Source of the DNA: Thermoplasmata archaeon
Lineage (GTDB): Archaea; Thermoplasmatota; UBA186; UBA287
Direction of reading: 5' to 3'
Assembly: GCA_011620765.1 (NCBI GenBank)
Contig: WOYO01000014.1
Location: 1 to 33,376 of the forward strand
Length of the DNA stretch: 33,376 nucleotides
In this document: positions 3,126 through 32,897 of the stretch, in pieces
How positions within the stretch are numbered: the stretch's first letter is position 1
Layout of the letters: each line of letters starts with the position of its first letter
Program-made: the position numbers and the translations under genes
The notes under the pieces: generated by a model
The model's database searches: none
What the model was told of the DNA's origin: nothing
The model's input: the letters and a program-made list of their open reading frames with translations, nothing else

Positions 3126-3264
3126 GGGGGTATGGGGTAGTGGCATCCTAGCGGGCTCCAGTTAAGGGGATGATTTGAATAGGGTCTTCTGAGGCATGAT
3201 GAGTGACTGGAGCAATGACCCAAGGAGAGACCCGCGGATCTGGGTTCAAATCCCAGTACCCCCA
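3126..3264 (+). tRNA. tRNA-Trp (CCA) with a ~68-nt intron (about 3162-3229)
   Basis: Acceptor GGGGGTA/TACCCCC. Anticodon stem GCGGG (3151-3155)/CCCGC (3231-3235). Anticodon CCA 3158-3160. T arm CTGGG-TTCAAAT-CCCAG. Discriminator A3264. CCA is not encoded. Confidence 0.92.
3162..3229 (+). ncRNA. putative box C/D guide RNA embedded in the tRNA-Trp intron
   Basis: D' CTGA 3189-3192; C' ATGATGA 3196-3202; weak C (ATGATTT ~3170-3176); weak D (ATGA 3215-3218). Guide ACTGGAGC (3206-3213) pairs with GCTCCAGT around the anticodon, and guide GGGTCT (3182-3187) pairs with AGACCC. The +5 rule gives positions 34 and 39. Confidence 0.75.
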
Positions 3265-3882: not shown

Positions 3883-4410
3883 TCATTTTATGAGATCATC
3901 TATATTCATTCCGCACATGCTGCTCAGCTCTTCGTGCAGCGCTCTAACCCTTTCAGCGGTTTTTGTGAGATTTTTTCTTCTGAGCGCTTCTATCTCCCTC
4001 TCAACGCTCTGCCTTCTGGTTGTTGCTATGAGATTATCTGCATGGCAGACTATCTTTTCCTCTATCGTTTCAGGCATATAGTTTCCTTCAGGGAGCCCCA
4101 GAGCCTTTGCATCCTCTCTATCCAGCCCCCCACCTATGTGCCTTTCGATTATGCGGATTATTCTTTCATCTATTCCCAGCGCTCTTGCTATCTGTGCTCC
4201 AGCGATAGCGTGTTTTATTCCATTTGTTCTGCACCTGCCTATATCGTGGAGCATAGCCCCCCTCAAAACAAGATCCAGATCTACGCTATAGCCTCTCTCT
4301 ATGAGCTTCTTTGCTATTATCTCTGCAACATCTCTAACAGCCCTGCAGTGCTCTATAACAATATCTGCACATCCCGCCTTCCTTAGTATATCCTCATCCA
4401 CACAGCTCAT
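3883..4410 (-). CDS. HD domain protein (TIGR00295-like metal-dependent phosphohydrolase)
   Basis: 175 aa. 'HCRAVRDVAEIIAKK', 'LRGAMLHDIGRCRTNGIKHAIAGAQIARALG', 'HIGGGLDREDAKALGLP'. Confidence 0.88.
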   Translation of the reverse strand: MSCVDEDILRKAGCADIVIEHCRAVRDVAEIIAKKLIERGYSVDLDLVLRGAMLHDIGRCRTNGIKHAIAGAQIARALGIDERIIRIIERHIGGGLDREDAKALGLPEGNYMPETIEEKIVCHADNLIATTRRQSVEREIEALRRKNLTKTAERVRALHEELSSMCGMNIDDLIK

Positions 4411-4443
4411 CGCATTGAGAGCTCTTATTTCTTGCTTTGAGAG

Positions 4444-5556
4444 CTATTTTATGAGAACTCCTCCCCTTGATTTTTTGAAGAAGTCTATCACACTCTCATA
4501 CTCTTCTATCTTCTTTCTGAGCATTGCATTTTCTTCAAGCAGGTTATTGGCTTTTTGCTTTAGAGATGTGTTGTCATTGGTAAGATCTTTCACGTTTTCA
4601 GAGAGCTTTGTTACATTCTCATCCTTCATCTTTGATTCTTCCTTCAGCTTCTCTATCTCTGCCTCCATCCCTGCAAGGAGCTCTTCTTTGAGCTCGCTCT
4701 TTCTTTTGTTAAGGAGACCATTCAGCGCATTTATCTCCTCCTGCGAAGTTAAGTTCTCCAGCCTCAGCTTCTGAACTTCTGTCTCTTTCTCGCTCATTTT
4801 TTTCTGCAGTTCTGCTAGCGTCTTTGATAACCCTGTGTTTTTCGCTTTCAGAGTTTCGTCAGCTCTCTGAGCTCTCAAAAGTTCCTCATCCTTCATATCG
4901 AGCTCTTCAGCTATCCTGTTCTTTTCTTCCTCCAGAGAGCTTTTAACCTTTTGCAGCTCCTCAAGCTCCTTTTTTGATTTATCAAAAGATTCTTTTATGG
5001 CGGAGAGCTGTTTATTTAGCTCATCTATTGCCTCTTTTTTCTCAGAGATCTCTTTTTTCAGGGGCTCAATCTCGCTCGATAATGAAGCTATCGCTCTATC
5101 TCTTTCCTGCATCGCCAGCTCAAGCTCTTCAACCCTCTTGCTCAGAGATCCTAGTTCCTGCTCTTTTCCCTCCAGAGAATTTCGTGTTTCTTCCAGCTCT
5201 CTCTCAAGCAGAGATACTCTATTGCTCTTCTCCTCCAGTTCTGCAAGAGCCTTATCCCTCTCTTCCTCTACGCTTCTGAGTCTCATCTCTAAATCCGGGA
5301 GCCTATTCTCATAATCAGCTACTTTTTTACGCGCGTTCTCGAGATCAAACAGAGATCTATTCCTTTCCTCAGATGCCTGAGATAGTTGAGCTTTAATTCT
5401 TTCTAACTCATTGTTTATAGCAATAATCCTCTCTTTTAGCAGCGAGTTTTCCTTGGTTGATCCTTCTAGCTCTCTTCTGAGCTCTCTATTTTCTTCTGCC
5501 AGTCTGTTGAGTTTTTCTCCAAGCTGCTGGAGTTTTATTGCGGGGTCACCGAGCAT
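4444..5556 (-). CDS. coiled-coil protein (370 aa)
   Basis: Almost entirely heptad-rich Glu/Lys/Leu sequence. No Walker motif. N-terminal 'LQQLGEKLNRLAEENRELRREL'. Confidence 0.85.
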   Translation of the reverse strand: MLGDPAIKLQQLGEKLNRLAEENRELRRELEGSTKENSLLKERIIAINNELERIKAQLSQASEERNRSLFDLENARKKVADYENRLPDLEMRLRSVEEERDKALAELEEKSNRVSLLERELEETRNSLEGKEQELGSLSKRVEELELAMQERDRAIASLSSEIEPLKKEISEKKEAIDELNKQLSAIKESFDKSKKELEELQKVKSSLEEEKNRIAEELDMKDEELLRAQRADETLKAKNTGLSKTLAELQKKMSEKETEVQKLRLENLTSQEEINALNGLLNKRKSELKEELLAGMEAEIEKLKEESKMKDENVTKLSENVKDLTNDNTSLKQKANNLLEENAMLRKKIEEYESVIDFFKKSRGGVLIK

Positions 5557-5570
5557 TAACCTCCTCCAGC

Positions 5571-5894
5571 TTAGGGGCCGCTCTCCAATTGATCTACCTG
5601 ACCGCTGAGCTCCTCTATCTGAGATACGAGATCATTATAGCTCCTCTCCACTTCTTCGAGCCTGCTTCTGAGATTGTTATTTTCTCTTGTCAGATCCTCC
5701 GCTCTATTTTCCAGCTCTGTTTTTTCTCTATTCATCTCATCTCTCTCTGCGCTCATCTGCTGGAGATTAGAAGTGAGATCATAAACCTCATTCTCCTTTT
5801 CATTCAGCCTGCTGCGGAGCTCCTTATTCTCCTTTAAAACCTCCTCAAATCTCTCTCTGATCTTCTGTATCCTTTCACCTACATCACTCATCAT
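5571..5894 (-). CDS. small coiled-coil protein (107 aa)
   Basis: 'GERIQKIRERFEEVLKENKELRSRL' and heptads throughout. Its start overlaps the upstream gene's stop by 4 bp (5891-5894). Confidence 0.82.
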   Translation of the reverse strand: MMSDVGERIQKIRERFEEVLKENKELRSRLNEKENEVYDLTSNLQQMSAERDEMNREKTELENRAEDLTRENNNLRSRLEEVERSYNDLVSQIEELSGQVDQLESGP

Positions 5895-8257
5895 TTTTCT
5901 TTACCTCCCATTACTTCCTCGTCAAGCTCCTCAAGCATCTCCATCAAAGCGCCGTGTGCGTTTTCCAGGGATGCTATGGATCTCTTCAGTTCTTCATTCT
6001 CATTTTTTAGAAGCTCTATGTTCTCTATTAAATCTTTCTTCTCTGTTTCTCTCTCTTCGAGTGTCCTCTTGAGTTCATCAATCGCCAGATTCTTTTCCTC
6101 AAGCTCTTTCTCCAGTGAAAATAGTTTATTCTCTATTTCCTGTAGCTCTTCTTCCCGAGCACGGTTCTCGTTCTTTAAGCTTTCAAATTCTTCTCTAAGC
6201 GCGGGCAATCTGTCGTTTATCTCCTGCTCTTTCTCAGCTCTCAAAGCTTCATGCTGGGATCTTAAGCCTTCGATCTCACTCTCAAGATCCTTCTTATCTG
6301 CCTCAAGCTTTGTTATTAAGCTCTTTAGCTCTTCTATCCTCATTTCATTGTCGTTCAGCGGCTCAGTGAGCTGCGCACCTTCTTCTGTCAATATCTCTTT
6401 TTCTTCTCCAGGCGCCCTTATAGAGATCAGATTTTCATTCAGCTTTTTTATTTCTTTCTGTAGCTGCTCGATCCTGGAGTCCCTCTCGCTGATCTCTTCT
6501 TCACTCTTCTTTGATTCTTCTAAGATCTTTTCTTTAAAGCTCTCCAGCTGTGAGTTTAGTGCTGTAATTCTTTCCTCTCTCCCTCTTAATTCCTCACTAA
6601 AGGCATTTACCTCTTTTCTCAGCTCTTCTGTCTCTTTCTCATACCCTTCTTTTTCTGTTGATAGCTGCTCTGTTCTCTCTTTAAGAGCTTCCAGCGCAGA
6701 GCTCAGGGTATCAAGAAGCTGTGATCTCTCTTCTGTATCCTTTTCTAACTCTACGATCTCTTCACGCAGAGATCTCAGCTGTTCTCTCTGGGCTTCGAGA
6801 AGCTCATCTTTTTTGCTCGCCTCTTCAAGCTGTCTCTGAAAATCTTCCAGCAATTCTTCTTTTTCCTCCTCTTTTCCTCTGAGCTCATTCCTTTCGTTCA
6901 CAAGTGCAACGAGCTTTTCCTCAAGCTCTTCTTTCTCAGATCCCAAGCTTTCAAGCTGTGTTTGAAGTGAAATTTCGGAGCTTGTGCTCTCAAGCTCTGC
7001 CTCTAAAGTTCTTATTTCCTCCTCCAGAGCACTCTTTTCCTTCTCTCTTCTTTCTACCTCCATCCTGAGCTCTTCAGCCTCTCTTTCTTTGCTCTCCTTT
7101 TCTGCTGATAGCTGCTCTACTCTCTCTTTGAGCGCTTCCAGAGAAGAGCTCAGCTGTTGTGTATTTTTCTGAAGCTCTTTAACTCTATGCTCATAGTTTT
7201 CCCTATCAGAGATAACTTCTTGAAGCTGTACCTGGAGCGCAGCAAGCTGTTCTTCCATAGCTCCTTTAACATTTGTAGTGCTCTCAAGCTCTGCCTCTAA
7301 AGCCTCTGTTCTTTCCTCAAGGGATCTCTTTTCCTCAGATGCTTTTTCTAGCTCCTGGCTCACCTCGTTTATCTCTGCTCTCAGCTCATCTTCTTTTTCT
7401 GCTCTTGCATCCAGAGATCTTTCAAGCTCTTCTTTCTCAGCTCTCAAGCTCTCTATCTCACTCTCAAGATCCTTCTTATCTGCCTCAAGATCTGTTATTA
7501 TGTCCTTTAACTCTTCTATCTCTCTCTCATTGCCGCTCAGCCGCTCTTTCTCTTCTTTAAAGCCCTCTATCTGTGATCTGAGCTCTTCCATCTCGCTCTG
7601 GAGCTTCTCTATATTGGAGCTGCGCTCGCTCGATTCCTGCGTAGCCGCTTCTAAGCTCCTTTCTTTCTCCTCCAGCTGTGAGCTCAATGCTGCAATCCTC
7701 TCTCTCAATTCTTCAGCAATCCTTTCCTTCTCTTCTTTCAAAGCCCTCAGATTATCTTCTACCTCTTCTCTCTCTTTGCTTATACCCTCTATATTATTTT
7801 CAAGATCTGATATCCTCTCTTTGAGAGCCTCTATCTCTATTTCTCTGCTCTCAGCCTCCTCCTTAAGCTCTCTTATGGTTCTCTCACGCTCCTCCAGCTG
7901 TGAGTTCAGTGCTGTTATCCTCTCCTCTTTCTCTTTGGAGTGCTCTGAGAGCTCCTCTTTTTCTTCATTAAGTGTATCTATCTCTTTTCTCAGCTCTTCT
8001 GTTGTGTCCTGCCATTCTTTTCTCTCCGCTTCATGTTTCTCTATTGATTCTTTAAGCAATCTGTTCTCTTCTACCAGCTCTTCAAACTTTTTTCTTATCT
8101 TTTCAAGCCTTTCATTGACCTGTTTTACAATAGCACTTTTTGATTCTTTCAGTTGAGCTATCTCATTATCTCTCTTTCTCAGCTCTTCTTTAAGAGAGTC
8201 CCTTTCTCTGATCAATTTTGTAAGGAGGTCTCTCACATTTTTATCCATTCTCTCCAT
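5891..8257 (-). CDS. large coiled-coil protein (788 aa), SMC-like in composition but lacking ATPase heads
   Basis: Continuous heptads and several internally repeated segments (e.g. 'DLEADKKDLESEIE', 'LEALKERxEQLSxEKE', 'ERITALNSQLE'). No P-loop or ABC signature was seen. Confidence 0.85.
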   Translation of the reverse strand: MERMDKNVRDLLTKLIRERDSLKEELRKRDNEIAQLKESKSAIVKQVNERLEKIRKKFEELVEENRLLKESIEKHEAERKEWQDTTEELRKEIDTLNEEKEELSEHSKEKEERITALNSQLEERERTIRELKEEAESREIEIEALKERISDLENNIEGISKEREEVEDNLRALKEEKERIAEELRERIAALSSQLEEKERSLEAATQESSERSSNIEKLQSEMEELRSQIEGFKEEKERLSGNEREIEELKDIITDLEADKKDLESEIESLRAEKEELERSLDARAEKEDELRAEINEVSQELEKASEEKRSLEERTEALEAELESTTNVKGAMEEQLAALQVQLQEVISDRENYEHRVKELQKNTQQLSSSLEALKERVEQLSAEKESKEREAEELRMEVERREKEKSALEEEIRTLEAELESTSSEISLQTQLESLGSEKEELEEKLVALVNERNELRGKEEEKEELLEDFQRQLEEASKKDELLEAQREQLRSLREEIVELEKDTEERSQLLDTLSSALEALKERTEQLSTEKEGYEKETEELRKEVNAFSEELRGREERITALNSQLESFKEKILEESKKSEEEISERDSRIEQLQKEIKKLNENLISIRAPGEEKEILTEEGAQLTEPLNDNEMRIEELKSLITKLEADKKDLESEIEGLRSQHEALRAEKEQEINDRLPALREEFESLKNENRAREEELQEIENKLFSLEKELEEKNLAIDELKRTLEERETEKKDLIENIELLKNENEELKRSIASLENAHGALMEMLEELDEEVMGGKEK

Positions 8258-8261
8258 GATT

Positions 8262-8822
8262 TCAGCTCCAGGAACTTTTATTTATATCCTTATCATTATT
8301 AAGATTTTTTGATATCCTGTATAGATAAACCCTGTTTTTTCTATCCGCTTTTTCAGGCTCCCAGCCATCAAATGTCCAGATGTATGTTACAACCCTTGCG
8401 CCATCTTTCAGCTCTTTGAAGAGCTTTGTTCTCAAACGATTGTTAACGCTCTGGTATAAAAAAAGAGCAACAACATCAGCATCTCTAAGGTCTGTATTGA
8501 AAAAATTCTCTCTCACAACCTCTGCGTTTTTTAACCTATTCGTCTTTATTCTAAGCTTTGTTATCGCATATCTTATTGGATCCAATTCTACACCAACTGC
8601 GTTGGCGCCGTAATGTTTGGCTGCTGTTATGACAATTCTTCCATCTCCGCAGCCTAAATCGTAGAGCTTTTCGCCCTTTTTTAGTTCTGAAACATCTAAC
8701 ATCTCTCGTACGATGCGCATAGGAGTTGGATCCCATGGAGCACTTTTTATGAGCGCAGGCCATAATTTTGATACAAGGTAAATGATGCAGAGAACTGCTA
8801 TAACTATCGCAAGGTAAAACAT
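8262..8822 (-). CDS. class I SAM-dependent methyltransferase
   Basis: 186 aa. N-terminal TM helix followed by 'KKGEKLYDLGCGDGRIVITAAKHYGANAVGVELDPIRYAITKLR'. Confidence 0.85.
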   Translation of the reverse strand: MFYLAIVIAVLCIIYLVSKLWPALIKSAPWDPTPMRIVREMLDVSELKKGEKLYDLGCGDGRIVITAAKHYGANAVGVELDPIRYAITKLRIKTNRLKNAEVVRENFFNTDLRDADVVALFLYQSVNNRLRTKLFKELKDGARVVTYIWTFDGWEPEKADRKNRVYLYRISKNLNNDKDINKSSWS

Positions 8823-8845
8823 ATACCAAAATAGAAAGGGATATA

Positions 8846-8856
8846 TATAGATTTTT
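8846..8856 (+). promoter_or_regulatory. probable archaeal TATA box for tRNA-Pro
   Basis: 'gggatatatatag' lies about 20-25 bp upstream of the tRNA 5' end at 8871, in the divergent gap with the methyltransferase gene. Confidence 0.5.
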
Positions 8857-8870
8857 ACTTTTCTCCTTAA

Positions 8871-8943
8871 GGGGCTGTAGGGTAGCTTGGTATCCTACGG
8901 GCTTTGGGAGCCCGAGACCCCAGTTCAAATCTGGGCAGCCCCA
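8871..8943 (+). tRNA. tRNA-Pro (TGG)
   Basis: Acceptor GGGGCTG/CAGCCCC. Anticodon arm CGGGC-TTTGGGA-GCCCG. TTCAAAT T-loop. Discriminator A8943. No intron and no encoded CCA. Confidence 0.95.
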
Positions 8944-22515: not shown

Positions 22516-24729
22516 ATGCAGCTCTCTGGCATAGACGAAGAGAAAGGAAGGGTAAGGGTCTGGCTTGGAAAAGAGTATAAGCTCTTTGATTTTCATCCCT
22601 ATTTTTATATTCATGTGCAGAAAGAAGGAGGAATAGAGGATCTCCTCAGAGATCAGGAAAATATTTTAAACATTGAGCCGCAGAGAAAGAGACTATTTGG
22701 AAAAGAGCTGGAGGTCTATAAAGTAACATTCGAGGATCAGAAAAGCATGAACTCATGCAAAAGAGAGCTTTCAGATAATGAGATCTTCGAAGAGGATATA
22801 CCATTAACAAGAAGATTTCTGGTAGATAACAAGCTTGTGCCGTACGGTGATGTTTCCCTGGAGAAAGGGGAGATAAGGACGGAAAAGGAGAGGAGCGGTA
22901 GAGAGTTAAAGCTATTTGCATTCGACATAGAGACGCACACAAGAAATATAATAGATTCCAAAAAGGATCCCATCATAGCGATATCGATAGCAACCAGCGG
23001 TGGCAGGAAAGATGTTATAATATCAAAGGATGAAAAAGAGATCATAGAAAAATTTGTATCCGCATTCAATGAAGAGGATCCTGATGTTGTTCTCACATAC
23101 AATGGGGACTCCTTTGATTTCCCATATCTCGTAGAAAGAGCAAAGAAGAATAAGATATCTTTAGCGCTTGGCAGGGATGGCAGTGCTGTTAATGCGAGAA
23201 GGGGTGGGGTAAGAGATACATACACTATCGCAGGCAGGGATACAGTAGATTTATACAGGATCGTTGAGAGAGATCTGCAGGAAGTTAAGGTAAAAACATT
23301 AGATAACGTCGCGGAATACCTGGGTGTGATGCGTAGAGAGGATAGAGTGCTGCTGGAGAATGATGAGCTGTTTGAGCTGTGGGAAAAGGGGGAAATAAAA
23401 AAGATAGAGGAATACACCATAGATGATGTTATATCAACCCTGGAGATAGGAAAAAAGCTTTTACCGATGCAGATAGAGCTCTGCAGGCTTGTGAAGCAGT
23501 TCTTAACAGATTGTTCACGAATGGGGAGAGGAAGGCAGGTTGAGAGCTATCTCATGTACAAAGCTGCTGAGCGCAATGAGCTCATACCGCCGCGCAGGTA
23601 TGTGCAGAGCGAGCACATGTATGAGGGCGGCTATGTGATGGAGCCTGAGAGAGGGCTTTTTGAAAATGTTGTTGTGCTTGATTTTGCCAGCATGTACCCA
23701 AATATAATGATAGCTTATAACATAAGCCCTGACACGTATGTGGAGGGTGGCGATGAGGAGCACTGCTATATAAGCCCCTCAAAGCATGCTTTTCTCAAGC
23801 AGCCTGATGGTTTCTTCAGGCAAATACTGAAAGAGTTGATAGAGGAGCGAAAGAGACTGAAGAAGAGCGCTAAGAGCTCTGTTGATGCGCTGAGGCAGCA
23901 GACAATAAAGATACTGACGAATTCTTTTTATGGTTATACGGGCTGGGGTGGAGCCAGATGGCATAAGCTTGAGTGCGCTGAAGCTACGGCTGCATGGGGA
24001 AGGTATACGATAAAAAAGGTTATAGAAGAAGCAAGGAAACGCGGGATAGAGGTAATATACTCAGATACAGACTCCCTGTTCTGCGTTGAAAAGGGGGATA
24101 TGAGATCATTCGCTGAAGAGATGAACTCCCAGCTTCCTCTGGAGCTGGAGATGAGGGAGCGATACAAAAGGATATTCTTTGCCGGAAAAAAGAGGTATGC
24201 AGGTCTTCAGGATGATGGTTCTATCGTTGTGAGAGGGCTTGAGGTTAGAAGAGGTGACTGGTGTGAGCTCGCAAAGAAGCTTCAAGAAGAGGTGATAAAC
24301 ACTATACTGAGAGAAGGGGATGTGGAAAAAGCCAGAAACATGGTTATTGAAGCTATAGACAGGGTAAAAAGCGGAAAAGCGGGTGTAGAAGAGCTTACAA
24401 TATACAAATCAATAACCCGAAGCATTGATTCCTACGAAACCGCTCAGGCCCACGTTGCAGCGTTGAAGAGGGCTATGGATGAGCAGCAGGATATAGAGTT
24501 CAGCAACAAAATAGGCTACGTTGTTCTTGAGGGCAAGGGAAAGATAAGCGATAGAACAAAGATCTCCAGCACTCTGAGCGATAAAGATAGGATCGATAAA
24601 GATTATTACATTGAGAATCAGATAATACCTGTGGCACTGCGCATTCTCGAGCATTTCGGCATAACCAAGGAAGAGCTCCTTGGTAAAAAACAGCAGAATC
24701 TGGAGAAATGGTTCTCTTCACAGGGTTAA
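22516..24729 (+). CDS. polB: family B DNA polymerase
   Basis: 737 aa. Exo I 'FDIET', exo II 'YNGDSFDFPYL', 'VLDFASMYPNIMI', 'KILTNSFYGYTGW', 'VIYSDTDSLF'. The C-terminal 'QQNLEKWF' fits a PIP box. Confidence 0.96.
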   Translation: MQLSGIDEEKGRVRVWLGKEYKLFDFHPYFYIHVQKEGGIEDLLRDQENILNIEPQRKRLFGKELEVYKVTFEDQKSMNSCKRELSDNEIFEEDIPLTRRFLVDNKLVPYGDVSLEKGEIRTEKERSGRELKLFAFDIETHTRNIIDSKKDPIIAISIATSGGRKDVIISKDEKEIIEKFVSAFNEEDPDVVLTYNGDSFDFPYLVERAKKNKISLALGRDGSAVNARRGGVRDTYTIAGRDTVDLYRIVERDLQEVKVKTLDNVAEYLGVMRREDRVLLENDELFELWEKGEIKKIEEYTIDDVISTLEIGKKLLPMQIELCRLVKQFLTDCSRMGRGRQVESYLMYKAAERNELIPPRRYVQSEHMYEGGYVMEPERGLFENVVVLDFASMYPNIMIAYNISPDTYVEGGDEEHCYISPSKHAFLKQPDGFFRQILKELIEERKRLKKSAKSSVDALRQQTIKILTNSFYGYTGWGGARWHKLECAEATAAWGRYTIKKVIEEARKRGIEVIYSDTDSLFCVEKGDMRSFAEEMNSQLPLELEMRERYKRIFFAGKKRYAGLQDDGSIVVRGLEVRRGDWCELAKKLQEEVINTILREGDVEKARNMVIEAIDRVKSGKAGVEELTIYKSITRSIDSYETAQAHVAALKRAMDEQQDIEFSNKIGYVVLEGKGKISDRTKISSTLSDKDRIDKDYYIENQIIPVALRILEHFGITKEELLGKKQQNLEKWFSSQG

Positions 24730-25674
24730 AAGATAGACAGCAAAGGTTGCAAGCCAGTGCTCACCCTCATAATGGCCGCTCATAATATAGGGCAAAGAAG
24801 CTTCAGCATGCTCTGCAGCTGACTTAGTGATATCTGAAGGTGCTGCTTTAGAGATCTCAAGCATGCACCATGCCCTGCTCAGGTTTAAGCCATCCAGGTG
24901 AACTATATAGGGATCGGAGCGATCTGAAATGATAACGGGCTTGAAAGAGATCACAGGTAAAAATCTATGCAACCATTCTGAGAATTCCTCGCATGGTAAA
25001 ACGCGCTGCATCAGCGCTGCTTCTATCAGAGAAGGAGATAGGAAATCATCTCCATCGGGCTCCCATGATGCAGGGTAATTCTCATCTTTACCAAAATAGG
25101 TCAGGCTTCTCTCTATAAGCAAGTCTTCAAGCTCTTTGTTGCGCAGTTTTTTAGCGTAGTCCAGCGCAAATGCTATACCGAAGGCGGTGTTTTGATGCTT
25201 GCCACAGCGCACAGGGTATTTCTGCTTTGGCAGAAAATTCAGATAGAGACCAGCGATCTCATCAGCCAGTGGCTTAAGCTTTTTTTGCCACTGTTTTCCA
25301 TCCTCAAATCCTGAGAGCTCCTCATAAAGCTTCAGCAGCCATGCCCAGCCATAGGTCCTCTCAAAAGATGGGTGCTTTTTAAAATACTCTGCCTCCTTCT
25401 CCAGGTTTTCAGAGCTGAGCGTATCGTCCAGAGCGCTATGGATCTCTGGTAGAAGGTCAGGAAAGAGCCTTAAGATACGAACAAGCATCCAGTGCGTGTG
25501 CACTGCGGAATGCCAGTCAAAGCAGCCATAGAATGCTGGATGCACCGCAGCAGGATTCTTTATATCTGAAGGAGCGCTCAAAGAATGTCCTGTATGGGGG
25601 AATTCTCTCCTTATGTTCTTAAGGGCAAGATCTGCGAAGTTTAAAGCTAGCTCTTTATCAAAGGTTTTTTCCAT
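24718..25674 (-). CDS. DUF2891 family protein
   Basis: 318 aa. 'HPAFYGCFDWHSAVHTHWMLVRILRLFP', 'SLIEAALMQRVLP', 'HLDGLNLSRAWCMLEIS'. Convergent 12-bp overlap with polB. Confidence 0.85.
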   Translation of the reverse strand: MEKTFDKELALNFADLALKNIRREFPHTGHSLSAPSDIKNPAAVHPAFYGCFDWHSAVHTHWMLVRILRLFPDLLPEIHSALDDTLSSENLEKEAEYFKKHPSFERTYGWAWLLKLYEELSGFEDGKQWQKKLKPLADEIAGLYLNFLPKQKYPVRCGKHQNTAFGIAFALDYAKKLRNKELEDLLIERSLTYFGKDENYPASWEPDGDDFLSPSLIEAALMQRVLPCEEFSEWLHRFLPVISFKPVIISDRSDPYIVHLDGLNLSRAWCMLEISKAAPSDITKSAAEHAEASLPYIMSGHYEGEHWLATFAVYLLTL

Positions 25675-26485: not shown

Positions 26486-27007
26486 CTAACTTAAGATACT
26501 AAAATTATTTCCAAGAAACTTTTGCATCCGTGATTTAGCAAAACTCAATGAGCACCCAAATTTTTTAAATGCGTCGAGAATTATCTGTTTTAGGTGATCG
26601 AGATCTTGTATGAAAGTCCGTGAAATGATTCTCCGAATACTTTTCCAGATGTATTCAATTGGGTTCAGATCCGGGGAGTATGGCGGTAAATATACCAGTT
26701 TCATACGATTCAGATCTGCGAATTCCCGTGTTTTATTTGCATGATGAGACCGGAAATTATCGAGGATGATAACAATATCTGCATCTGGATTCTTGTTTCG
26801 GATAGCCTGAAGGAACTCGCAGACATCCTCCTTCTTCGAATGTTCGTGAAATTCAAGAACGGAACATCCGTTAATTGGGTAAAATCCGAATGTATTTGCC
26901 CGGAATTTTGAGGTGTTCTTTACCAGCGTAGGATGACCACAGGACCAGAGTCGCTGTGTATTTGCCGTTGTTTGTGGAGATGTTTCATCCAGAAATCCAA
27001 TAATCAC
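26486..27007 (-). CDS. IS630 family transposase, DDE catalytic part (second ORF of a frame-disrupted gene)
   Basis: 'IIGFLDETSPQTTANTQRLWS', 'VIILDNFRSHHANKTREFA', 'LVYLPPYSPDLNPIEYIWKSIRR'. Confidence 0.88.
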   Translation of the reverse strand: MIIGFLDETSPQTTANTQRLWSCGHPTLVKNTSKFRANTFGFYPINGCSVLEFHEHSKKEDVCEFLQAIRNKNPDADIVIILDNFRSHHANKTREFADLNRMKLVYLPPYSPDLNPIEYIWKSIRRIISRTFIQDLDHLKQIILDAFKKFGCSLSFAKSRMQKFLGNNFSILS

Positions 27008-27020
27008 ACCTGGATTTATT

Positions 27021-27506
27021 TCAGGTAGTTTTTTTTAAGAGAGATTCGGCATCATCGGGTCGACGGTAATCATGAGTGAATGGTTTTCCATATTTCATCT
27101 TCAACTTCTTCAGGATGATTCGAATTTGTTTAAGAGTATATTCAACACCGAATTTCTCATATATCAGGGTACGGACTTCATCGGTCGTCCATGTGGATTT
27201 TTGACTTAACAGTTCTTGTAACTGATTGAATTCTTCTGATGAGAGTTTCATTGGCCTCCCTCCAGCATAACGAGGAATAATCCCATCATATCCATTCTCA
27301 TTCCACCTTCGTTGCCAGATGTATCCTTCATTCCTTGTAATCCCCACCCTTTGTGCAGATTCTTCTACGCTCGTTCCTTCATATCGATATTTTATAAAAT
27401 ACAGTCTTTTGAGGATTTTCGTGTCTTTTTCCAGAGTTTTAATTCTCGATTCCAATTCATCTACGGTAATACGTCTCTGTATCGGTATCTGTTCAGACCA
27501 GGGCAT
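27021..27506 (-). CDS. IS630 family transposase, N-terminal HTH/winged-helix part
   Basis: 'GTSVEESAQRVGITRNEGYIWQRRWNENGYDGIIPRYAGGRPMKLSSEEFNQL'. Ends in an A8 run (reverse complement of T8, 27029-27036) where the frame is lost. Confidence 0.87.
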   Translation of the reverse strand: MPWSEQIPIQRRITVDELESRIKTLEKDTKILKRLYFIKYRYEGTSVEESAQRVGITRNEGYIWQRRWNENGYDGIIPRYAGGRPMKLSSEEFNQLQELLSQKSTWTTDEVRTLIYEKFGVEYTLKQIRIILKKLKMKYGKPFTHDYRRPDDAESLLKKTT

Positions 27507-28228: not shown

Positions 28229-30373
28229 ATGGAAAAAGTAACTGATGAACAAATAAAATTTATTGCTCAAAGATTGAAAGAAGGTAAACCTCTGCCTGAA
28301 GAGTTCAAATGGCTCTTATTTGAAGGAAAGCAAGAAGCTGAATTGGGTTATTTTGGAAAAGAAAGAGATATTGATGTAATAACGGAAACGATGGCCGTTC
28401 CTCTCCAAAGAGTTAAAGCATTTGGTAAAATAAAAGATGATGAATGGCACAATATGCTTATTTTTGGTGATAATTTACAAGTTCTAAAAGAATTGATGCT
28501 TTGGAAAGAAGCCGGAAAACTAAAAAATCCCGATGGAAGTTTAGGTGTTAAGTTAATTTACATAGATCCACCTTTTGGTACAGGAGATATCTATGGGAAA
28601 GGAGATGTTGGAGCTTATTCTGCTAAAATGGTAGGAGCAAAATACTTAGAATGGTTAAGAAAGAGACTAATTCTGTTAAAAGAAATCCTTTCTGACGATG
28701 GAAGCATCTATGTCAGAATTGATTATCATTTTGGACATTATGTTAAAGTTTTGATGGATGAGATTTTTGGAAGAGAGAATTTTCAGAATGAGATTGTAAT
28801 AAATAGAACAAGAAGATTAAAAAGTGAAGGAAATAAATTCTATATTTCTACAGACTCTATTTTCTTTTATACGAAAACTGATAATTATTTATTCAATCAT
28901 GTAAAGATGGAGGAACCTTATGAAATTGAGATAAAGTGTACTGATGAACCTGCAGCTCGTAAAGTTAAAAGAGAACTTGAAAAAAATATAGTAGATTGCG
29001 AAGTAAAAATTGAGAAAAATAAACTTCTACTAAGAAATCAAAAATGGGTTGAAATGCACGCTTCTTCTAAGAAAATTGATAATCCTCCACGAAAATTCTT
29101 TGGTAAAATGATTAAACCGCCGAGAAAAAGAAGATGGATGTGGAATCAAGAAGCCATTGACAAAATGATTGGACAAGGGTTTATTAGAATCAATAAGAAC
29201 AATGGGTTGCCAGAACTTATTAGAACTTGGCGGCATTTAGGAACAGATTGGACAGATATTAAAGGATACAGCCAAACAACAGGATACCCAACAGAGAATT
29301 CTGAAGAGTTATTAGAAAGAATTATCTCTGCTGGTTCAAACGAAGGTGATATGGTTCTTGATGCTTTTGCAGGCTCTGGAACAGCAGGGGCAGTTGCTGA
29401 GAAATTAGGAAGAAGATGGATTATGATCGATGCTGGGAGACTTGCAATCTATACAATGATTAAAAGAATGTTGAATCTGAAAGAAGAAATTGGAAACACA
29501 GGAAAAGATTTGAAGCCAAACCCATTTGCTGGATACAATGCTGGTCTGTATGATTACAAGTTAGTTAAAGAATTGCCATTTGAACAGTATAGGAAATTTG
29601 CTTTAGAATTATTCCAATGTAAAGATGAACCTCATGAAGTAGGAAAAATAATGCTAGATGGTTATTTTAGCCTGGATCATGTTTTAGTTTTCAAATGGAA
29701 GAACGAAGGAGAGTTGGTTGTTGACCACGAATTTATTAATGAATTACATTCTTTAATTGGAGATAAGATAGGAAAAAGATTCTTTATTATTGCTCCCTGG
29801 GCAAATGTTGCTTTCAGAGAAGATGTAGTCCAAAAAGACGATGTCAGATACTTTATGCTAAGAATACCTTATTCGGTTATTGATGAATTACATAAAAAAC
29901 AATTTACACCTCTTGTGCAACCTATTTATACCTCTCAAGAAGTCAATGTTGTTATGGAGCAAGTAGGGTTTGATTTTATCAATCCACCTGCTGTTGAATG
30001 TGAGTATTATATTGATAAACCAAAAGCAGGTCTTGGTAGATTTACTGGAGAAAAGGAAGCTGTTATCAAAATAAAAAAATTTTATAGTAATGTTGTTTCT
30101 AAGAAACCAATTTCTGATGAAGATAGAGGCTTCAAATCACTATCTATGGTTATGGTTGATATGAACTATAATACTGAGTGGTTTAATTTCTCTAAATGGA
30201 TTAGCTCTAAAGACATAGAGAAAAATGATTGGGAAATAAGACTTGACACCGAGAAATTAGGTGAAAAAATAATGGTTGTGTACATTGATAGTTACGGAAA
30301 CGAAAAGAAAGAAGTTTTGAGTTTGAATAATTTTAAAGGAAATGAAAATAAATCCACGAAGGAGGGGAAATAA
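28229..30373 (+). CDS. mod: type III restriction-modification DNA methyltransferase (Mod, beta-class order)
   Basis: 714 aa. 'NMLIFGDNLQVLKELM', 'KLIYIDPPFGTGDIYG' (DPPF motif IV), then 'MVLDAFAGSGTAGAVAEKLGRRWIMID' (motif I). Confidence 0.92.
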   Translation: MEKVTDEQIKFIAQRLKEGKPLPEEFKWLLFEGKQEAELGYFGKERDIDVITETMAVPLQRVKAFGKIKDDEWHNMLIFGDNLQVLKELMLWKEAGKLKNPDGSLGVKLIYIDPPFGTGDIYGKGDVGAYSAKMVGAKYLEWLRKRLILLKEILSDDGSIYVRIDYHFGHYVKVLMDEIFGRENFQNEIVINRTRRLKSEGNKFYISTDSIFFYTKTDNYLFNHVKMEEPYEIEIKCTDEPAARKVKRELEKNIVDCEVKIEKNKLLLRNQKWVEMHASSKKIDNPPRKFFGKMIKPPRKRRWMWNQEAIDKMIGQGFIRINKNNGLPELIRTWRHLGTDWTDIKGYSQTTGYPTENSEELLERIISAGSNEGDMVLDAFAGSGTAGAVAEKLGRRWIMIDAGRLAIYTMIKRMLNLKEEIGNTGKDLKPNPFAGYNAGLYDYKLVKELPFEQYRKFALELFQCKDEPHEVGKIMLDGYFSLDHVLVFKWKNEGELVVDHEFINELHSLIGDKIGKRFFIIAPWANVAFREDVVQKDDVRYFMLRIPYSVIDELHKKQFTPLVQPIYTSQEVNVVMEQVGFDFINPPAVECEYYIDKPKAGLGRFTGEKEAVIKIKKFYSNVVSKKPISDEDRGFKSLSMVMVDMNYNTEWFNFSKWISSKDIEKNDWEIRLDTEKLGEKIMVVYIDSYGNEKKEVLSLNNFKGNENKSTKEGK

Positions 30374-30374
30374 A

Positions 30375-32897
30375 ATGCCGGAGAAACTTAAAATTAGCCC
30401 AAATGATTTGGTATTGGAGGTTTCGGAAAATGTAGATCCTAGAAAATTTGATATTTCTAAATACGATGATTTTATGGATGCTGTTTTTGGCAACAGATAC
30501 TATCATAAAGAAGCTGTCAAAAAGACCCTATTCTATTTTTTGAGTGGAAATTACAGGAATCTGAGAGATCTAGCACTGCAAAATTATAAAACAAACGAGA
30601 TACTACAAAAAATCTTTCCTAGACAAGTAGATTACGAGAAACATCTTCAACTTCCAGATAAGCTTTCTGCAACTATCGAAGAAGCAACTGCCACAGGCAA
30701 AAGTTATGTTTTATATGTTGTTGCTCGGATTATGTTAGTAGAGGGGATTGTAAATAGGGTTTTAGTTCTATGCCCCTCAACTACAATTGAAACTGGTTTA
30801 ACAGAAAAATTCAAAGAACTCTCTTCTGATCCTGAATTGATTAGATTGCTTCCTCAAGATGCTAAAACCCCAAGAATAATTAGTGGAGATGAAACTATTA
30901 AAGAGGGCGATATTTGTATTGAAAATATTCATGCAGTTTATGAAAGGACTGGTTCTTCGATTGGGGCAAGTTTAAAAGGAAAAGGCCAAGAAACATTGGT
31001 TTTGAACGATGAAGTACACCATGTTTATAATAAACCAGGAAGAGACGAAGCAATAAAGCAGTGGAAAATATTCCTTCAGAATCCAGATTTTAACTTCAAA
31101 TATGTTCTTGGAGTCACGGGGACGCCATATATCGAAAATGAATATTTCTATGATGTTATTTACCGATACTCATTAAGACAGGCAATAGAGGATAATTTTG
31201 TTAAGCTGATAAAATATGCTGTGGAAGGTGGGGCTACAACAGAGGAAGAACAATTTAAGATGATATACGATCACCATTTAAAGAACAGAAGAAAATACAG
31301 AGAAATAAAACCGTTGACAATACTTGTTACAAAAGATATAAACAATTGTAAGGATTTAGCAGAGAGATGGGTTGAGTTCATCTCTAAAATAGAAAAAATA
31401 TCAAAACCTGAAGCAGAGAAAAAAGTTTTAATTGTAACATCGGCTGATGAACATAAGCAAAACGTCTTAAAACTCAGAAATGTTGATGATAAAGATAATC
31501 CTGTTGAATGGATTACCTCTGTTAGCATGCTTTCAGAAGGGTGGGATGTAAAAAATGTATTCCAAATAGTACCACATGAAAAAAGAGCCTTTAATTCTAA
31601 ACTTTTGATTGCTCAAGTTCTTGGGAGAGGTCTAAGAATACCTCCACAGTATGCCATTGAGAAACCAGAGGTAATTATCTTCAATCATGTCAGATGGGCG
31701 CCAGAAATAAGACAACTAGTGGAAGAAGTAATGGAAATAGAATTAAGACTTCATATCTACCCTATCAAAGAGAAAAATGATTATAATTTTAAAATACATC
31801 AAATAGTTTATGAAGTTAAAGAAGAGCCGAGAGAGACAAAATTCAAAACAGAAGGGCCTAAAAAGATAAATTTTTCTCCACAAGTAGAAGCTTTAGAAAA
31901 AGAGACTGAATTTGAGAAAGTAGGTACTCGCGAAAGAGAAATTATCAAAGTAAAAGTCTTCTATAATTTTTATACAGTCGAAGATGTTGCCAATGATATC
32001 TGGAACAGGCTTGTGTGGGATGACAGAGAATTTGAAACAGATTCTTCTAAGAAATTTACATTAAAAAAGATAGAGAAACTGTTAAAAGATGCATTGAAGG
32101 AGATAGGAGAAAAGAATAACAGAATATCCGAAGAAAACAAATTGAAAGCTATTCAAGCTTTCGGTATATTTAGAAGAAAGAAAACAAAATCTCCAAAATA
32201 TGAGAGATCGATAAAGGAAATAGATGAACTTAAAACAGAAGATATCAAATCGCATTCCATTAGCATAAGTTCTTTAAGAAAGGGTTTAACAGTTTTCTTT
32301 GACGAAAACTCTATGAAATACAGTAATGAAGAAGATAAAAAGGTGTTAAAAAGTTTACCAGAAGATGAAGCTATTCCTGCATATGCTCTGGGGGATAGAT
32401 ATATTCAAAATACATATTTTTTCAAAACACCTACAAATATCTGTGTTGCTTCATCATCACCAGAGCGATTATTTGTTAAAAAACTTGTTGAAAAGGATAA
32501 TTCAGAATTAGTTGATGGTTGGATAAAATCCAGGGATGTGGGCTTCTATTCTATAGATTACTATTGGCGTAAGGGTGAACACCACAAGAAAGGATCTTTC
32601 AATCCCGATTTCTTTCTGTGGAAAAAGAAAGATAATATGATAATTGTTGTAGAGATAAAGGAAGACGCATTGATAGAAGAGGTTAGTGATGAGAACACGG
32701 ACGTTGCCAAAGAACATAAAGCTAAATATAAATTTGCCAAAGATCATTTTGAAGAGTTAAATAAAAACAAAGAGATAAAAACAAAGTACTTCTTCACATA
32801 TTTAACCCCAAAAGACTTCGATAAATTTTTTGAATATTTGAGACAAAGAAAAATAGAGAAATTTAATCCAGAAATAAATATAGCATTAGGAAGATAG
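30375..32897 (+). CDS. res: type III restriction endonuclease subunit (Res; start revised to ATG 30375)
   Basis: 'EATATGKSYVLYVVARIML' Walker A, 'LVLNDEVHHVYN' motif II, 'LLIAQVLGRGLRIPPQ' motif VI, C-terminal 'FNPDFFLWKKKDNMIIVVEIKEDAL' PD-(D/E)XK nuclease. Strong RBS 'ggaggggaa' upstream. Confidence 0.9.
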   Translation: MPEKLKISPNDLVLEVSENVDPRKFDISKYDDFMDAVFGNRYYHKEAVKKTLFYFLSGNYRNLRDLALQNYKTNEILQKIFPRQVDYEKHLQLPDKLSATIEEATATGKSYVLYVVARIMLVEGIVNRVLVLCPSTTIETGLTEKFKELSSDPELIRLLPQDAKTPRIISGDETIKEGDICIENIHAVYERTGSSIGASLKGKGQETLVLNDEVHHVYNKPGRDEAIKQWKIFLQNPDFNFKYVLGVTGTPYIENEYFYDVIYRYSLRQAIEDNFVKLIKYAVEGGATTEEEQFKMIYDHHLKNRRKYREIKPLTILVTKDINNCKDLAERWVEFISKIEKISKPEAEKKVLIVTSADEHKQNVLKLRNVDDKDNPVEWITSVSMLSEGWDVKNVFQIVPHEKRAFNSKLLIAQVLGRGLRIPPQYAIEKPEVIIFNHVRWAPEIRQLVEEVMEIELRLHIYPIKEKNDYNFKIHQIVYEVKEEPRETKFKTEGPKKINFSPQVEALEKETEFEKVGTREREIIKVKVFYNFYTVEDVANDIWNRLVWDDREFETDSSKKFTLKKIEKLLKDALKEIGEKNNRISEENKLKAIQAFGIFRRKKTKSPKYERSIKEIDELKTEDIKSHSISISSLRKGLTVFFDENSMKYSNEEDKKVLKSLPEDEAIPAYALGDRYIQNTYFFKTPTNICVASSSPERLFVKKLVEKDNSELVDGWIKSRDVGFYSIDYYWRKGEHHKKGSFNPDFFLWKKKDNMIIVVEIKEDALIEEVSDENTDVAKEHKAKYKFAKDHFEELNKNKEIKTKYFFTYLTPKDFDKFFEYLRQRKIEKFNPEINIALGR

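Follow-up and report, generated by a model that had tools for sequence, protein, structure and literature searches.

We describe a five-gene cluster on the minus strand of an archaeal contig, in which three coiled-coil proteins are encoded between a methyltransferase and an HD-domain metallohydrolase. The window, that is, the whole stretch of DNA analysed (33,376 nucleotides), is an entire contig of a 1.29-Mb assembly that is 87% complete. We think that the cluster is a lineage-specific operon for a cytoplasmic scaffold of rods or filaments, expanded by duplication and accompanied by a membrane-anchored aKMT-like methyltransferase, and we give this reading a probability of about 0.5. Most likely, the cluster represents an undescribed internal scaffold, found beyond its genus in no other genome searched; as judged from the genes, it stands as a well-supported gene family, not as a demonstrated system. 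Few structural proteins of the coiled-coil type have been described from archaea. An operon that varies the number and length of its coils within one genus would be a natural case of a filament or scaffold originating by duplication, with a possible link to lysine methylation added.

The five genes extend from 8822 to 3883 and, in transcription order, encode a methyltransferase of 186 aa (8262-8822), coiled coils of 788 aa (5891-8257), 107 aa (5571-5894) and 370 aa (4444-5556), and an HD-domain metallohydrolase of 175 aa (3883-4410), with spacings of 4, -4, 14 and 33 bp. Both the open reading frames of the window and the gaps between them exactly match the five packed minus-strand genes described in the sequence-only reading. 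A TATA box (CTATATATAT, 8841-8851, minus strand) lies about 23 nt upstream of the methyltransferase start codon, so a leaderless mRNA is predicted. The block CTATATATATCCCTTTC-ATTTTGGT directly precedes this start both in the window genome and in Euryarchaeota archaeon UBA287, the only other genome of the genus compared. Among the cluster genes, the methyltransferase alone has a conserved TATA box ahead of it, and Shine-Dalgarno-like sequences precede the coil genes: GGAGCTGAAATCATG before the 788-aa gene, GGAGGT before the 107-aa gene and GGAGGAGG (5557-5570, minus strand) before the 370-aa gene, where UBA287 has GGAGGGGGG. A single operon is thus likely. The HD gene, which follows the widest gap (33 bp), has no clear site of this kind, and a sigma-70 type promoter scan is uninformative for an archaeon. 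The packing and order of the genes are kept in the sister genome, as is the promoter block, and from them we infer a single transcript. A tRNA-Pro(TGG) gene (8871-8943) is found between the divergent methyltransferase and Nudix genes.

The three coiled-coil proteins share a hydrophobic period of 3.50 residues (power 7.4-12.5 vs 1.2-1.7 in shuffles). They are rich in lysine and glutamate (glutamate 19-27%), contain no cysteine and one to three prolines, and have a pI of 4.6-5.1. AF2 models, made as monomers, consist of helices only: residues 5-216 and 236-363 in the 370-aa protein, and four helices spanning residues 3-783 in the 788-aa protein, with a proline-containing linker at about 614-630. 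Since their pTM is low (0.24 and 0.20, respectively), only secondary structure was taken from these models. Signal peptides and TM segments are absent from the three coils. So are both halves of the ATPase head of SMC, Rad50 and ASRP proteins (Walker A, signature, Walker B) and, with no cysteine in any of the three, the CxxC zinc hook of Rad50. These absences argue against SMC, Rad50, secreted or membrane-embedded roles. In Pfam and NCBIfam, the coils match the coil regions of many unrelated families, nearly always below the curated cut-offs. Rod profiles of crescentin and intermediate filaments remain below cut-off (Rod_CreS, PF19220, 22.8 bits vs 100; PF00038, 26.1 vs 40), as does Arcadin-4 of the crenactin cluster (NF053563, 17-21 bits vs 860), and in the PDB the 107-aa family is related to generic coils, for example myosin. 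Heptad periodicity, profile searches and helix-only models thus bear out the earlier description of coiled coils with neither P-loop, TM segment nor globular domain.

The same reading had also proposed an N-terminal module common to the three coils. The module strings were located at residues 49-69 of the 788-aa protein, 7-30 of the 107-aa protein and 9-30 of the 370-aa protein. In the 788-aa protein, the module (46-78) sits behind a conserved N-terminus of its own (residues 1-45), which places it close to the N-terminus, not at it; a long rod, the linker and a conserved C-terminal rod (about 645-785) follow. The 107-aa protein consists of the module (4-36) and a 70-residue coiled-coil tail. 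When 28-residue stretches were compared without gaps, the module was the best pair between the 788-aa and 107-aa proteins (72, next 56). Across genomes, it topped the comparisons of the 788-aa protein with the 97-aa ortholog of UBA287 (74, next 59) and of the 346-aa coil of UBA287 with the 107-aa protein (72, next 47). The null consisted of 5,203 windows taken from unrelated coiled coils (SMC, Rad50-like and others); these windows overlap, so that their counts are not independent trials. A profile from four long-coil sequences scored 73.5 on the 107-aa protein and 65.2 on the 97-aa protein, whereas no null window exceeded 43.2. The converse profile, built from the 107-aa and 97-aa proteins, scored 57-84 on the long coils, against a null maximum of 48.0, the partial 592-aa ORF of UBA287 giving the value of 57. 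Judged by these scores, the relatedness of the 788-aa and 107-aa families exceeds generic heptad similarity, the alternative against which the claim had been set, and lies far outside the null. The module claim therefore stands for these two families and for further UBA287 ORFs, and it is marginal for the 370-aa protein. This protein scores 43.8 against the null maximum of 43.2 (0 of 5203 windows exceed it) through a weak match at residues 4-36, in the same register from Met1; its 412-aa ortholog reaches only 31.0, with 27 null windows higher, and the genome search with the module profile gave it 11.9 bits (E 0.38). Its membership of the module family is possible.

Synteny in relatives, which the proposal of a cluster implied, was found in UBA287, where order and packing are the same; the cluster-bearing genomes are two, both incomplete (87% for the window genome, 63% for UBA287). 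In UBA287 the cluster is split over the ends of two contigs and contains at least five coiled-coil ORFs, a longer array than that of the window. The methyltransferase comes first, followed by a 346-aa coil, a coil of at least 141 aa, the contig break, coils of at least 592, 97 and 412 aa, and the HD gene. No overlap was found between the two contig ends, so the break may hide more. The 346-aa coil corresponds to the N-terminal part of the 788-aa protein, and the C-terminus of the 592-aa fragment matches the 788-aa C-terminus; should the 141-aa and 592-aa fragments be pieces of a single gene, two modules would lie in it. Between genomes, divergence is much faster for the coils (42-55% identity) than for the enzymes, which are 83% (methyltransferase) and 76% (HD) identical. 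The 107-aa and 97-aa proteins are 55% identical, and so are the 370-aa and 412-aa proteins, although the last 17 residues of the latter pair reach 88% and the C-terminal tail VIDFFKKSRGGVLI is invariant. The flank upstream of the methyltransferase, with Nudix, zinc-ribbon, ModE-like and dihydroorotate dehydrogenase genes, is conserved in both genomes. One of the module-bearing coil ORFs of UBA287 (L084:3-425), which starts with the basic sequence MRRLFGRKDSK, is absent from the window and runs off its contig.

Origin by duplication, already suggested from the window, is supported by the module scores and by codon identity. The 141-aa and 592-aa ORFs of UBA287 use the same codon at 14 of 15 identical residues (6.3 expected), indicating a recent duplication. 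Between the 788-aa and 107-aa genes the figure is 8 of 14 (6.4 expected), which is chance, and thus this duplication, if real, is old. Internal DNA repeats of 99-118 nt with 79-89% identity are found in the long coils of both genomes.

The cluster is not a general archaeal feature: among the genomes searched, it was found in this genus only. When 390 genomes of the phylum were searched with the module profile, only the two genus members gave matches above 24 bits, and none of the 388 others did. Six module copies scored 60-71 bits, but they are the sequences on which the profile was trained, and so the informative part is the absence elsewhere. A scan of genome contigs with the 370-aa protein gave no match, a scan of contigs with the methyltransferase alignment returned UBA287 alone, and outside the genus the 788-aa and 370-aa proteins match generic coils only. 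A class-mate 93% complete (G002) has neither the coils nor the methyltransferase, and no coil lies near its HD domain. The nearest methyltransferase homologs outside the genus, in two genomes (G006 and G039, 35% identity in the alignment), are N-terminally anchored and have no coil neighbours; genomes of one family (f6) contain related TM-anchored methyltransferases with no coils nearby, and the HD protein occurs without coils across the phylum. As the nearest relatives of the enzymes elsewhere lack coil neighbours and the module was found in the genus only, the association is a product of this lineage. In another genome (G043), a 290-aa coil lies near a weak methyltransferase match and shows no sign of the module. 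A different tandem array exists in the same phylum, on contig C11 of genome G008, where three adjacent coiled-coil proteins have CPxCxGxG zinc-ribbon-like tails (L108:3899-6976); the same contig encodes an 1839-aa coiled-coil protein with a second coiled-coil ORF ahead of it (L110:3922-10001).

The methyltransferase is most likely a membrane-anchored, putative aKMT-like protein-lysine methyltransferase. Its residues 1-25 are hydrophobic and probably form a TM anchor, followed by a class I fold of the aKMT/FAM173 type with the SAM motif DLGCGDGR and an NFF motif. The whole catalytic domain (residues 26-170) aligns to aKMT4 of Sulfolobus (PDB 5fa8/5jwj, E 3.6e-32; PMC4639711). The window enzyme differs from aKMT4 in its N-terminal hydrophobic anchor, its operon with coiled coils and its score against the aKMT profile NF041081 (109 bits, below the cut-off of 200), and it is the only clear homolog of its type in the window genome. 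The aKMT family has broad specificity (PMC4639711), and crenarchaeal methyllysines are found mainly in alpha-helices, with no sequence context (PMC2929605), so that the neighbouring coils are plausible substrates. The HD protein passes the cut-off of its family (TIGR00295, 186.1 bits vs 172.35; PF01966). HD proteins of this family are often fused to the tRNA methyltransferase Trm56, as they are in the class-mate G002 (L107:8468-9433). The window protein, in contrast, stands alone, with Trm56 on another contig (G000:C45:33338-33685), a separation that we read as fission or relocation. This protein probably has a metabolic or tRNA-related role and is a passenger in the cluster.

In the scaffold reading, one operon would produce a set of soluble cytoplasmic rod proteins, which would associate in parallel, by way of the heptads and the N-terminal module, to form homo- or hetero-oligomers. 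The extended 788-aa coil would give rods of up to about 115 nm, which may work as a filament or scaffold specific to this genus of archaea, and the array would expand and contract by duplication within and between genes. The TM-anchored methyltransferase, translated just ahead of the longest coil, may methylate exposed helix lysines near the membrane. It is tempting to go further and imagine an archaeal filament system with subunits made by tandem module duplication, length set by internal duplication, assembly tuned by the co-translated anchored methyltransferase, and the short module-only paralogue in the role of an end or nucleation factor; we regard this fuller picture as improbable.

Against a scaffold, coiled coils serve many roles, the methyltransferase occurs without coils in family f6 and the HD protein without coils across the phylum, and the 370-aa protein may be unrelated to the other coils. 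The coils could instead be fast-evolving spacers or adaptors, each with a different partner, sharing an operon through local duplication and forming no joint structure. The rapid divergence of the coils relative to the enzymes would suit this explanation, as would the differences in gene number and length between genomes and the marginal relatedness of the 370-aa protein, but conservation extends to gene order, spacing, Shine-Dalgarno-like sites and the two ends of the 370-aa protein, and several ORFs retain the module close to their N-terminus. We consider the spacer explanation about half as probable as the scaffold.

Two other explanations seem unlikely to us. The coils could be headless partners of chromosome organisers, docking as rods onto SMC or Rad50 or tethering DNA. 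Canonical SMC-family heads are present elsewhere in the genome, and the long coil finds its best family matches in the coil regions of SMC and ASRP proteins. However, these matches are compositional and far below their cut-offs (121 bits vs 567 and 104 vs 300), and the proteins lack heads, a zinc hook and a DNA-binding domain, and their genes are not linked to SMC genes. Alternatively, the coils could mainly be substrates of the methyltransferase, for control of stability or surface charge, with structure secondary. The 4 bp between the first two genes, the broad-specificity enzyme family and the lysine- and glutamate-rich coils would fit such a role; the related anchored methyltransferases of the f6 genomes lack nearby coils, and thus the coils are not an obligate substrate.

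A scaffold would have counterparts in overall form among known systems. Bacterial coiled-coil-rich proteins (CCRPs), crescentin and cyanobacterial filament-forming proteins can build filaments (PMC7002697). As in the window, these are long headless heptad coils with no signal peptide or globular domain, several per genome; the sequence relation is restricted to the heptads, and the window coils are tandem archaeal genes with an N-terminal module. The Mad20/23/25/26 coiled-coil network of Desulfovibrio magneticus, which organises magnetosomes with actin-like proteins (PMC12748827), likewise comprises several lineage-specific coiled-coil proteins, but neither actin-like nor magnetosome genes were seen near the window cluster. 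Sph3 of Haloferax volcanii, an archaeal coiled-coil protein for which a cytoskeleton-like part in cell shape has been proposed, is described as SMC-like (PMC10869688), whereas the window coils have no SMC head.

A viral origin was rejected after scans of viral contigs gave no match. PADLOC matches of the coils to JetC, LmuB and DruC profiles were read as compositional, and a defence-system reading was likewise discarded. Separately from the coil cluster, the window contains a type III restriction-modification pair (28229-32897; Mod 714 aa, Res 851 aa), adjoined by a split IS630-like transposase (26486-27506, DDE_3 and HTH parts). A DUF2891 protein (24718-25674, minus strand, 405 bits) is encoded beside PolB. 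An Rfam tRNA match of 139 nt (3126-3264, plus strand) was missed by ARAGORN, which suggests a large intron.
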